Assembly (NCBI RefSeq): GCF_013394795.1
Contig: NZ_JABXYU010000001.1
Span: 868,001 to 932,000 of the forward strand
Length of the DNA: 64,000 nt
Direction of reading: 5' to 3'
DNA from: Leptotrichia sp. oral taxon 223
GTDB lineage: Bacteria; Fusobacteriota; Fusobacteriia; Fusobacteriales; Leptotrichiaceae
Below the pieces are notes generated by a model. The model was not told the DNA's origin, did not search any database, and saw only the letters and a list, made by a program, of their open reading frames with translations. Shown here piece by piece: positions 4,766-49,563 of this stretch. The translations under genes and the position numbers were made by a program. How positions within the stretch are numbered: position 1 is the first letter of the stretch; each line of letters opens with the position of its first letter.

Positions 4766-5260
4766 TTATCTTTTAAAAACTAATTCAATAATTCTCAAAA
4801 TACAAAAAGTAATTCCGCTGGCAATGACAGGCCCTGCAGCAATTCCTTTGAAAAACACAACTCCCATTATTGTTCCAATTACTAGAGCGACTGTGATTTC
4901 AGGCTGTCCCGAAAGTAGTCCTACGCCTTTTGAGGAAAGGATGGAAACAGTAATTCCACTTATAATCGCAACCCATCCAATTGGAGATTTAAAAGCATTT
5001 AATAAGTGTGAAAATCCAATTTCCCCTGTGGCAATAGGAATTAAAATAGCGACTGTAATTATCAGAACACCCCAATTTATACCCTCTTTTCTAAATTGAG
5101 TCATAAAATTCTCAATGTCAATTCCCTTTAATTTGCAACTTTCTGTGATATTAAATAAAACTTTTAAAATTAGTACAAAAATTGTTGCATAAACTATGGA
5201 TTTATTCTGTGTAACTGCACCAACTAACAAAATTAATCCTAAAAAAATAAAACTTTCCAA
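4766..5260 (-). CDS. DUF441 (UPF0756, YeaL-type) inner-membrane protein
   Basis: A 164-residue, very hydrophobic protein with about four to five membrane spans, matching the UPF0756/DUF441 family in length and in conserved phrases such as GVGLLSGQPEIT near the middle and GIAAGPVIASGI near the C-terminus. The molecular function of the family is unknown. It starts 40 nt after the stop of the giant DUF4132 gene and is the last gene of that operon, ahead of the terminator at 4690-4736. Apart from gene order, nothing in the sequence ties it functionally to DUF4132. Confidence 0.85.
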   Translation of the reverse strand: MESFIFLGLILLVGAVTQNKSIVYATIFVLILKVLFNITESCKLKGIDIENFMTQFRKEGINWGVLIITVAILIPIATGEIGFSHLLNAFKSPIGWVAIISGITVSILSSKGVGLLSGQPEITVALVIGTIMGVVFFKGIAAGPVIASGITFCILRIIELVFKR

Positions 5261-5299
5261 AATTCTTCCTTTCTATTTTTTTCTTTTTTCCATTTTTTC

Positions 5300-8200
5300 C
5301 TATTTTATCTGTTCCAAAATAAACGGATCCTTTATTTTAGCGTCTTCCGCAAATAAAATAATTTTACTCATAATTTCGGCTGTTTTGGGATCTTCGTCAA
5401 CAAATGGCAGGAATATTCTTCCTCTTTGCTGAGAATGTACTGGAAGCACGTTTATTTCAGCTCCTGCTCTCTGATGAACCACTCCACTTCCCAAATGAAC
5501 TGTGTATTCTGCACGTTCGCCTTTTATTATAGCATGTTTTTCAGTAAATGTAATATTTTCAAGTTTGAATAATTTAAGATTGAACTCAACAATTGCTTTT
5601 CTCATTTCAATAGTCGAATGGCTGGCTTCAGGATCGACACCGCCAATGTGAGCCACACTTACAGCTAAATCCACATCCCGCATTACTTCCGTAAAGATTA
5701 AATCAGGAACATTGTCTATAAGTAAAGGCTTAAACGTTTTTCTGTCATAAAAGCAAACCCATTCAAGTGTTGGAGCTTCAATATCAGATGGAGAGAACCA
5801 GTCCGCCATTGCATAAATTTTGGCTATGATATTTTCCTTGTAGTAAACTTTTTGCAGCCCTTCCTCATAATCAGCAACCCATCTTCGATTTTTCAACACA
5901 GCAACAGTTTTATTCGGCTGAATCTGATGTCCAGCATATCTCAGTGAATTTTCCTTACCTTTTTCGTCCGCAGTTTTTACATAAATTTCTCTAAATACTT
6001 GCTTAAACGGCTGTTTTATCTGTTTTGTGAACAAATCCTGCTGATACTCGCTCCATTTTCCACTGTTATATAAATCAAGAGCATGAGCAATTTTTAACAC
6101 CTGATTTTCTTCAAGTTCAATAATATCGCCATTTACAGTTACAAGGCCGCCTTCGCTGTAATAACCAAGATTGTTTTCAGATTTGAAAACAAGAGTATCT
6201 AGCAGTGGTGAAATTACAGGATTTTCCATCAGATTTTTTATTTCATAGTTGTAAAATTCTGTGCCATCTTCCATTGCTTCTTCCAGCATTTTTTTAGAAC
6301 GTCTATACTGCTCCTTCAAATTCTTATTAACTTCCTTAATTTCTTCAATATACTTATTTTTCTTTAGTTTTGCCGGCATTGTTTTCAAAATTTTTCCATT
6401 TTTTTCAAAAACTGTTTTAGTTTGTCCAAATTCATCAATTTTTATAAACACCGAAATTTCATCAATTTTTTTTGGCTCAAAATATTTTTGCATTTCATTA
6501 ATTAAAGCTGTTTCCATACTCCAGATTAAACGGATTACATCTGAATATCCAGCATTTCTTGATAAATTTTCAAGAGATATTTCAAATGCCTTTGCCTCGC
6601 TTGCCCGACGCTGAGCCCCAAACTGCTTGCTTTCCTTCAGAAACTTCTGCAAAAATTTATATCTATGAAGCAAATCCTTGTCACGAGCTTTTTTAAGTGG
6701 AATTAAGGAATAACTGGCAACCAGGTCTTTATTTCTCTTATCTTGAATCTTTGTTTCCGTTTCCTTTAATTTCAGTTTCCCTTGCACAGCATCCGCAAAC
6801 ATTCTTGCCCGTGAGTGCTTTGCTCCATCTGATACATATTTTGCCGCCTCATAAAGCATCTCAAACCGTTTTTTCCCAAGCTCCTTATAAGCAGACTTGA
6901 ACCAGTCAATGTCAAAAGCTCCCACAGCCAAGTCTTCCACAGAAATAGGAGTATATTTGGCAAACAGGCTTTCCATATTTTTAGATACATCACTTATATG
7001 AGCGTGGAAATAGTAACAGGCACTTTCCATTCCCTTCCAGCCCAAATATTCCTGAATAAGCGGTATCCATCGTGGTGCATACATTGCCACTTCTATAAGC
7101 CGCTGCTGACTGATTTTGCTTCCTTTTATTTTTTTTGCAAAAAGTTCACTGGTGTCGTTTTTATCAGGCTGGCTATTTTTCAGAAGATGGCTCAAATTTG
7201 ATTTTTTGGAATCATCGCTGTAATAGTAGGAATAATAGCCTCCTCTTTCCAGCTTTTCATTCCCCAGTGCCATCAAAATCTTGATAAGATTGTCAACACC
7301 TTTTACAATCGGTATCTGATGAATCGTATTTGAATATTCCACAGGATTTTCCCCTCTTTTAAACTCAGCTTCCAAAATGTAGTCTATTATTTTTTGCCCT
7401 TCCACTTTAAAAAATTCCACAACTTTCTGTTCATCTTCACCCCTGTCAGAATCTTCATCACCATAAATAAAATTGCACAAAGTTCTTATATTGTCCTTCG
7501 CATTTCCACGATTAAGCACTTCGATGTAAAACTCATCTTTTGCGATAATTCCTTTTGTTACAGCGAAAGCAAATTCATAAAGCGAAATTAGTTTCCCGCT
7601 TAAATCACCATTTTTCTTTTTCACATAATTGTACATTTTTTTATAAATTTCATATTTTAAGATAAACTGCTCACAAAATTCCTTGTCATCTGAATAATAT
7701 TTCATATCATCTTTAGCAGCCTGAAAAATGAGATTACTTTCAAAGATACTTTGATATGTTTCTTTAGCGTTATTCCTGCTCCAGTAATTATTTTCCTGTT
7801 TTGTCAAAATTTTACTTTCATCTGAATGGTTATAGACATAAGAAAATATAACTTTTCCAAAATTGTAACGATATTCTTTGTTTTTGCTTTCATTCTTGTA
7901 TTCATTCACAAGTATACATATAATCTGGTTTATCTTTCCAATTGAATAATAATATCCGTTATTCATCTCAAAATATTTTAAATTATTATTTTTGCTTTTT
8001 TCAAGCATTATTTGTTCAATCAGATTATTTGCATCAAATCCAATCATTTCATTTGTATAGTCTAAATATTTCTTTGCTAAAAATTTTTCCTTCGTAAATA
8101 AATAAAGCTGATACAATGTTTCAAAATCTTTAATTTTTGTTTCATAAAATTTCCGCCATACTTCCTTAAGCGGATAATCCTCCAGTTTCTGATTTTTATA

Positions 8201-47433: not shown

Positions 47434-48168
47434 CTAATTTTGAAAAAAATCACTTACATTAAGCTCTAACATCTGATCAATAGTGTATCTTTCAAGTCCT
47501 GTAACAGCCATTTGCTCTGCTATGTCAGCAACTTCTATGATGTCCTGTATTTTTTTAGATAAAACTTTTAATTCCGTTCTATTTAGTTCTATAAATTCAA
47601 CAAGCCCTTTGTCATTTTGTGCTTTCACTTTTTCTATTTTGTCCTGTTCCAGCACCCACATTAATGAAATTTTTAGAGACAATCTATTTCTGTTTTTCTC
47701 ATTGTTCTCAAATGTATACTTTTTACCAGCTTTTTCAATTTCTATTGTCTGATTTAAGTAATTAGACTTTGCTTCTGCCAAGTCCTGCAAAAGCTTGTTT
47801 TTAAGTTCTTTTTTTCTTTCATTCATCAAAGTGTTATCCACTTTCCATTTTTTATTTTCTCTATCCCAGATACTCCAGTCATTTGGCTTTGCAATCCTTT
47901 TAACTGATTTAGACTTTTCATCTAAATACTCACCGTCCGCTAAAAAGAGTTTTCCAGCAACAATCTGTTCATATTCATTCATTTCCCTTAATTCGCCTGT
48001 TTCTGTATCAATAACAGGATTTACAAGGTATGATGTTGAGAAAACCATTGTTTCTGAATTCCAGTCTGGGAAAAACAAGTTAGGTTCTTCCTTAAATTTT
48101 TCGACACCAAGTGTCATCGGTTGAGCTATTAACTCTAAAGAGTTTTTGTCATAAATGTAAATTATCAT
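47434..48168 (-). CDS. tail fibre assembly-like protein (DUF4376-like)
   Basis: A 244-residue protein. The N-terminal half is a beta-rich 'IYIYDKNSLELIAQ...YLVNPVIDTETGELREM' region, as in tail-fibre-assembly and fibre-associated proteins, with a tryptophan-containing WSIWDRENKKWKVD link. The C-terminal half is a helical domain (LLQDLAEAKSNYLNQTIEIE, FIELNRTELKVLSKKIQDII) resembling DUF4376. It lies between the endolysin and the fibre, the usual position of a fibre chaperone. GGAGG precedes the ATG. Confidence 0.65.
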   Translation of the reverse strand: MIIYIYDKNSLELIAQPMTLGVEKFKEEPNLFFPDWNSETMVFSTSYLVNPVIDTETGELREMNEYEQIVAGKLFLADGEYLDEKSKSVKRIAKPNDWSIWDRENKKWKVDNTLMNERKKELKNKLLQDLAEAKSNYLNQTIEIEKAGKKYTFENNEKNRNRLSLKISLMWVLEQDKIEKVKAQNDKGLVEFIELNRTELKVLSKKIQDIIEVADIAEQMAVTGLERYTIDQMLELNVSDFFQN

Positions 48169-48204: not shown

Positions 48205-48546
48205 TTGTTTCCAACTCTGTGCAAATTGGAAAATTTACACACAATGGGAAATAATTATATTGAATTTCCAGATGGTCTAATAATCCAGTGGGGAGAAAAC
48301 TATTTTGAAGGACTTTCAAGTACACCTGGGGCATCTATTACTAAAAATATTAATTTCCCAAAAACTTTTAAACAGAAATGTGTTAATGTCCAAATTTCAG
48401 GGATTTACAACTATTCAGATGAAAGTTTGGAAGTTACTTTTGTCTCGTCAAATATCACTAAAGAAAAATTCTTACTGCAAGTAATGCGACAACGTGGCGG
48501 CGGTGGCGAAAAAGCTGGATTTTTCTGGACTGCTATCGGGTATTAA
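48205..48546 (+). pseudogene. alternative tail-fibre tip stored in inverted orientation (gp53-like)
   Basis: On the strand opposite to every neighbour, the frame encodes MGNNYIEFPDGLIIQWGENY, then FEGLSSTPGASITKNINFPK TF, and ends FFWTAIGY: the gp53-like C-terminal fibre domain. It has no body of its own. Upstream of MGNN the frame is not fibre-like. GGAAATAAT at 48247-48255 also occurs inverted at 48784-48792 inside the fibre gene, and an inversion between these would attach this tip in frame. Confidence 0.75.
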
Positions 48547-48792
48547 CTAATAGCAAAAGGAAAGCTAAAGCTGAAACTATATTTAATATTTGCTGTTATA
48601 GTTCCATCTCCGACGACTTTGACTTCTCCGTTTTTATTGACTGAAAATCTTTCAGCACGAAGATTATTCTGAATGATTGCTGCCGTACCTTCGAATGCTG
48701 AAATTGGAGAAACAGGAAGTTTGCAAATTGTAGTATTTCCGTTTGAACTCACGGGGGAAACGTCGTGAAAATGGAACATAGCGATTATTTCC
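48247..48792. repeat. putative invertible segment for tail-fibre tip switching
   Basis: GGAAATAAT at 48247-48255 and its inverse ATTATTTCC at 48784-48792 bound a segment containing two converging tips whose stop codons overlap at 48543-48546. This is the plan of the Mu G-segment. Inverting the segment gives GYTIGNN-YIEFPDG in frame. No invertase gene is in the window. Confidence 0.55.
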
Positions 48793-49563
48793 TATAGTAT
48801 ACCCATTTGCATTTCCGTGATTCACGTTAGTTAAAGCTAAGTTCTTATATTCTGTAATTTTGAATAAATTTTCCACTCTATCTGAAAGTGGTTTGTTGGA
48901 GATAGCTCTGAATTTAGAACTTTCGTTATAAGTCAGGTTAGTATTTTCTATACACTCGTAATAAAATTTAGTCACACTATCAAAGTAAAATTTCCCTTTA
49001 ACTTTGTTACCAGTATCTTGAATATTCCCTCCAAATTCTATTCCCAGAATTTCGGCTAATCGGTTGCCTTCGAGAGCTGTACCCGCTGTTGTGCCATACA
49101 ATGTACTGTCTGATAAAACAAAAGAATTATTGCTATAATTTAATAAATATTCTTTTTTCTCTTTCAATACTCCTTTATCCAATTTTCTCGCTGAATTTTC
49201 TTTAACTCTGTAAATTGGATATTCTACACCACCCAATTTTAAAAATACATCATCGTATTGATTTTCTCTGTCTATTCTGATTAATAATTTTAATCCATCG
49301 AATACTCCAAATTCTTCGATTCCAACCAACATTACCTCATAAATATCTTTATTTGTACCTGATGTTCTTGTTGCGTTTAAAGTGTGTACCAGTCCTTTTT
49401 GTAAATCGTTCATAATTTGAGCCGTTAAAGTTGTACCGATTTGGCTCGCGGTCTCCTCGCCTTTCCAAATGTGTCTCACTAATCCTGCTCCAACATCACT
49501 TGCATTTTCAACTTTGTAAACATCTAAATTAGATCCTACCCAGTCCTTTATCTTTTTTAACAT
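48543..49563 (-). CDS. tail fibre protein, tip frameshifted
   Basis: The intact frame runs 299 codons from the ATG at 49563 to 48664. The body has MLKKIKDWVGSNLDVYKVEN, IRIDRENQYDDVFLKLGGVE, and NLALTNVNHGNANGYTIGNN before the tip. The tip then reads RYVPFSRRFP and goes out of frame at five C (48753-48757, G on the plus strand). With four C it would continue VSSNGNTTICKLPVSPISAF, EGTAAIIQNNLRAERFSVNK and end FSFSFPFAIS at 48543. As written, the receptor-binding end is missing. Its ATG is directly after the tail protein I stop. It should determine host binding. Confidence 0.75.

Follow-up and report, generated by a model that had tools for sequence, protein, structure and literature searches.

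A probable tyrosine-recombinase switch of tail-fibre tips in a Leptotrichia prophage

A prophage of Leptotrichia sp. oral taxon 223 very probably carries a two-tip receptor-binding switch driven by a tyrosine recombinase. It lies in a 64,000-nt stretch of the main contig, here called the window, to which coordinates refer unless a contig or locus is named. The best candidate enzyme is a XerC/D-like recombinase encoded in another prophage of the same genome (G000:C1:167549-168490), which would act in trans on the window copy. It would catalyse site-specific recombination between inverted copies of a site of ~14 bp, AAATTnGAnAATTT. Flipping of the 0.65-kb cassette in this way would place either tip A (gp53-like) or tip B at the end of a constant fibre body. 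As assembled, both cassette orientations exist within the same genome. Direct evidence for flipping is provided by relatives and by comparison between loci rather than by the window copy itself.

The fibre gene and its two facing tips

The tail-fibre open reading frame (ORF) as now read occupies 48664-49563 on the reverse strand and has PHROG tail-fibre matches. It consists of the constant body (~48876-49563) and tip B, which ends out of frame. Homologues of the ORF are present in 23 of 60 related genomes, and many end near the ENL site described below. The character of the sequence changes near a run of five C (48753-48757, reverse strand). Past this run, the GC content at third codon positions (GC3) is 0.52 in the annotated frame and 0.21-0.24 in another frame, compared with 0.26 in the fibre body. 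The fibre's final ~29 codons therefore look out of frame (0.52 against 0.24 in the other frame). To judge from GC3, the C-terminal part of tip B was probably once read in the frame at 48543-48779 on the same strand, which is open up to a stop overlapping that of tip A. An earlier note on this DNA had placed the loss of the tip at the C run; both GC3 and the second open frame support this, with the position of the shift being approximate. Tip B is in the same broken state in all three cassette copies of the genome. No intact relative was found among the 60 related genomes searched, so relatives give no verdict on whether the frameshift is real. Unless it is a sequencing error, the two states of the switch now offer an intact tip A or a tip B that appears to be broken.

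The facing ORF (48205-48546, forward strand) encodes in its C-terminal ~97 residues a gp53-like receptor-binding tip, tip A (48241-48546), which is stored upside down. This tip matches PF21882 (E=3.6e-15) and, weakly, an H-type lectin domain (E=9e-4). The two stop codons overlap by two bases (48544-48546 for the facing ORF and 48543-48545 for the probable tip B frame). The earlier note's description of a gp53-like tip on the opposite strand with overlapping stops is confirmed by the domain match and the two-base overlap. In the window the gp53-like tip A is off, and tip B is the one that appears frameshifted. The next tail-region gene, with no assigned function, lies at 47434-48168 on the reverse strand; in loci of the L038 type, described below, the corresponding position is separated from the cassette by a tyrosine recombinase gene.

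Cassette copies and the crossover site

The invertible tip cassette spans 48223-48875 (653 bp including the sites), as delimited by identical copies elsewhere in the genome with differing flanks. The gp53-like tip is encoded three times in the genome at 100% protein identity. The copy on contig C4 (locus L037, 9665-10317) is identical to the window copy over all 653 bp and has the opposite orientation, while the other copy on contig C1 (168.5-169.2 kb, locus L038) is 99.6% identical over 667 bp and has the same orientation. In all three pairs the identity is bounded at either end by the crossover site. The additional 14 bases of the L038 alignment contain three mismatches and encode related body sequence. 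A short stretch of flank shared by the window and C4 aligns in direct orientation whereas the cassette aligns inverted, and the C4 cassette is therefore truly inverted relative to its surroundings. The remaining flanks of the three copies are those of different prophages. In C4, tip A is fused in frame to a different fibre body, forming a protein of 331 aa (L037 9994-10989, reverse strand; ...AKKLENLHTMGNNYIEFPDG...) with an N-terminus that matches PHROG tail fibres. The invertible tip cassette proposed in the earlier note is thus present in both orientations, although at different loci. That note would have been contradicted by a single orientation everywhere together with the lack of any invertase; instead, both orientations were seen and a tyrosine recombinase is linked to the cassette.

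The true inverted repeat was located by comparing the cassette copies. The repeat TGGAAAATTTA occurs at 48227-48237 (forward) and 48865-48875 (reverse), exactly twice in the window versus 0.41 occurrences expected. The distal crossover site, AAATTGGAAAATTTA (48223-48237, forward), where the identity between copies begins, is intact at both cassette ends in L037, L038, and L048. It encodes K-L-E-N-L inside the fibre, and this motif is found in frame before the tips at both ends of the cassette. Its inverted partner in the window, the body-proximal site AGAGTGGAAAATTT (48866-48879, reverse), lies within the codons for VENL and has a degenerate outer half-site (AGAGT in place of AAATT). Imperfect half-sites (AAAGT, AGAAT, ATATT) also occur at cassettes that differ in orientation in genome G005 and in Cetobacterium, so this degeneracy alone does not settle whether the window copy is frozen or active. 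The consensus given above is joint with the Cetobacterium site and is likewise read in frame as K-L-E-N-L; cleavage presumably takes place within it.

The earlier note had proposed GGAAATAAT as the recombination site. This sequence does occur at 48247-48255 and, inverted, at 48784-48792. Two copies are what chance predicts (shuffled windows contained a mean of 2.43, and 75 of 100 had at least two), and the breakpoint of the inverted copy is elsewhere, so it was rejected as the crossover site. The note also expected a flip to join GYTIGNN to YIEFPDG. The inverted C4 copy joins in frame at KLENL followed by HTMGNNYIEFPDG, which places the flip at K-L-E-N-L and not at GYTIGNN.

Recombinases, related genomes and alternative explanations

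The gene adjoining the L038 copy encodes a 314-aa tyrosine recombinase (PF00589, E=4e-22). Its XerA/XerC/XerD-like matches fall below curated cut-offs, and the best solved relative is XerA. The start codon is ~40 bp from the cassette end. The catalytic residues R165, K190, H257, R260, H282, and Y292 are invariant in 14 recombinase sequences. There is only one close copy of this gene in the genome; other PF00589 genes exist, and assigning the enzyme to the window copy hence draws on its linkage to cassettes here and elsewhere. No recombinase gene adjoins the window copy or the C4 copy. The genome has only three serine recombinase (PF00239) genes, encoding 451 aa (C1:957845) and 205 and 207 aa (both on the 26-kb contig C2), none of them beside a cassette copy. 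The first of these (C1:957845-958282) is ~26 kb beyond the right edge of the window, and its product is possibly the integrase of the window's prophage.

Orthologues of the L038 recombinase with at least 69% identity were found at eight loci (G009, G003, G017, G010, two in G005, G007, and one IMG/VR contig). At all eight the neighbouring fibre gene ends in an ENL-type tip junction, and a facing tip lies behind an ENL motif of its own. The off tip of G009 (SKVQQAKLYV...) belongs to the family of the on tip in G003. The IMG/VR contig (L097) is the same as G009 and in the same orientation, and so adds no further evidence. In G005, a 557-bp cassette is present in opposite orientations at two loci with 99.5% identity, the on tip of one being the off tip of the other. 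Each of these loci has its own recombinase gene, in direct orientation. The cassettes differ at 3 of 557 positions versus 56 of 972 in the neighbouring recombinase stretch (Fisher P=1.7e-8). Near-identity continues beyond the site for ~386 bp, reaching into the recombinase gene, so exchange bounded by the sites is not a general rule and is not claimed for G005. Another genome, G003, has two near-identical prophage stretches (L006 on C2 and L027 on C1, 99.2% over 3.6 kb); one of them is on a 31-kb contig, and a stop codon is reported inside the L006 fibre match.

Searches of viral contigs with the fibre fusion protein and of genome contigs with the single recombinase gave no match. A search with a recombinase alignment detected Cetobacterium sp. 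2A, with a 48% identical enzyme. Apart from inverted segments, three contigs of this strain match each other at 100% over 8.9 kb. Upstream of the recombinase gene the inversions reach 2277 bp and end at KLENL sites; downstream of it, one 168-bp segment is inverted. Seven tips carry the LENL site, with the sequence AAATTAGAGAATTT, and the three contigs have three different on tips after ...GKLENL (LKIETLNY, VGSNGNIQ, and LKSKEVYT). Taken as assembled, the contigs are direct evidence of switching within one strain. Other distant relatives have several tips on both strands with LQN, LKN, or TVEN junctions. The Vagococcus recombinase (L139, 37% identity) precedes a large ORF and is not beside fibre tips, and L058 and L059 also lack tips; the wider recombinase family is therefore not always linked to tips. 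In G012, a 33-residue recombinase remnant with a stop codon (C1:588176-588274) is ~200 bp from a single-tip fibre gene, which suggests decay of a switch.

A second segment of ~150-190 bp, apparently non-coding and with inverted-repeat arms of 10-17 bp that differ from the KLENL site, separates the recombinase gene from the following tail gene (L137/L138 4948-5115; also downstream of the recombinase in L048, L051, L052, L104, L116, and L117). Two Cetobacterium contigs carry it in opposite orientations at 100% identity, and its orientation also differs between several other prophages. This segment may be an invertible regulatory element.

The main rival to an active switch is a frozen relic: the window cassette would have come by exchange from another prophage and would flip no more, the enzyme being absent from its prophage and the half-site decayed. 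The lack of a recombinase gene next to the copies in the window and on C4, the degenerate proximal half-site, and the break in tip B in all three copies are consistent with this, and the G012 remnant beside its single-tip fibre indicates that such systems do decay. Against it, the same genome encodes a recombinase that is full-length and has its catalytic residues intact, and similarly imperfect sites are found where cassettes differ in orientation in G005 and Cetobacterium. A relic is a real possibility, although an unlikely one. Homologous recombination or gene conversion between tail-fibre genes, moving and inverting the segment with no site-specific enzyme, is considerably less probable. 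Fibre genes often recombine, and the near-identical tract reaching into the G005 recombinase gene is what a conversion tract would look like. In the present genome, however, identity stops on both sides at a site of 11-15 bp with unrelated flanks, the inversions within the otherwise identical Cetobacterium contigs use several KLENL sites, and a specific recombinase family accompanies the cassettes.

Two further explanations have very little probability. In a switch of the Mu/P1 type, to which the earlier note likened the locus, a serine invertase would flip the segment at GGAAATAAT. Mu G and P1 C do have this layout of a constant body followed by facing tips, but the breakpoint is elsewhere in every inverted pair, the repeat is no more frequent than chance predicts, and no copy has a serine recombinase alongside; the linked enzyme is of the tyrosine family PF00589 and is encoded beside another prophage's copy. 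Equally improbable is an assembly artefact in which the three identical 0.65-kb repeats were misplaced or misoriented. Assemblers can be confused by identical repeats, and the copies were compared in the assembly; against this, the copies have unique flanks, the assembly consists of 4 contigs, one of 2.1 Mb, and another genome (G005) also has an inverted pair, with a breakpoint of the same kind. The tyrosine-recombinase switch is thus preferred. The earlier note's reading as a host-range switch is largely upheld, with an invertible tip cassette in a prophage, while its breakpoints and enzyme class have been replaced. A change of tip would be expected to alter host range, the role of the tips being deduced from family resemblance.

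Tentatively, the prophages in one cell may share a pool of fibre tips, with the recombinase of one prophage both flipping and exchanging the cassettes of others through KLENL sites, across lineages. Such exchange would explain why three prophages have the same site-bordered cassette while only one has the enzyme. The alternative is independent acquisition of the cassette from a common donor. The shared identical cassette suggests that resident prophages trade receptor-binding tips through the switch's own sites, which bears on the evolution of phage host range.

Comparison with known systems

Invertible fibre tips are known from Mu G, P1 C, and p15B Min, in which serine invertases (Gin and Cin in the first two) act on their own sites. 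The constant fibre half and the inverted alternative tips behind crossover sites are shared with the present locus, and in Mu G and P1 C the tips likewise face each other behind a constant body (PMC6109161). The small serine recombinase adjacent to the Gin, Cin, and Hin systems has no counterpart here, as none of the three PF00239 genes is beside a cassette.

In the R64-type pilus shufflon, the tyrosine recombinase Rci shuffles alternative C-termini of a plasmid pilus tip protein through short repeats. The enzyme class and the short repeats are similar, and the seven-tip array of Cetobacterium resembles this system, but the target there is a plasmid pilus tip protein and not a phage fibre.

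The Fusobacterium phages Funu1 (KR131710) and phiRTG5 (OR492272) have the same order of fibre, small reversed ORFs, and recombinase, the latter 45-46% identical to that of L038. The recombinase genes (4968-5942 in Funu1, L102; 5004-5972 in phiRTG5, L103) adjoin the reversed small ORFs, which have tip-like junctions. Both records are annotated with an integrase and hypothetical proteins and with no inversion system; to judge from gene order and similarity, the 'integrase' annotation may be wrong. Tyrosine-recombinase switching appears widespread in Fusobacteriota prophages, including named Fusobacterium phages, with several states seen in one strain, and this bears on how annotations as 'integrase' are read in phages of Fusobacteria from the mouth and gut.

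By analogy, the closest known system is the Rin shufflon. In Bifidobacterium prophages it has a tyrosine recombinase and 11-bp crossover sites (PMC6109161), and it is also present in Eggerthella lenta prophages (PMC8778435). Rin and the present system share a constant N-terminal body with alternative C-terminal tips and a short crossover repeat before each tip, here AAATTGGAAAATTTA encoding KLENL. Different arrangements with breakpoints in the repeat were found in the present genome, in G005, and in Cetobacterium sp. 2A. The enzymes are XerD-like, and the Eggerthella Rin tips are of the H-type lectin kind. A tyrosine recombinase beside the receptor-binding gene is found at the L038 copy and the eight orthologous loci, not at the window or C4 copies. 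The differences are the host phylum and the site, which is TGGAAAATTTA rather than the rix site TTCCCTAACCC and, within the fibre, is read as KLENL. Two facing tips are the usual arrangement here, and only more distant relatives have multi-tip arrays; in addition, one identical cassette is common to three prophages, two of them without an adjacent enzyme. No Bifidobacterium phage was among the phage matches listed for the recombinase. Because the site differs, the system is said to work like Rin and is not filed as Rin itself. A literature search confined to open-access journal papers turned up no description of fibre inversion in prophages of Leptotrichia or Fusobacterium. Host-range switching by a tyrosine recombinase is already known from a few actinobacterial prophages; new are its order-wide version in Fusobacteriota and a single cassette common to three prophages with one candidate enzyme.
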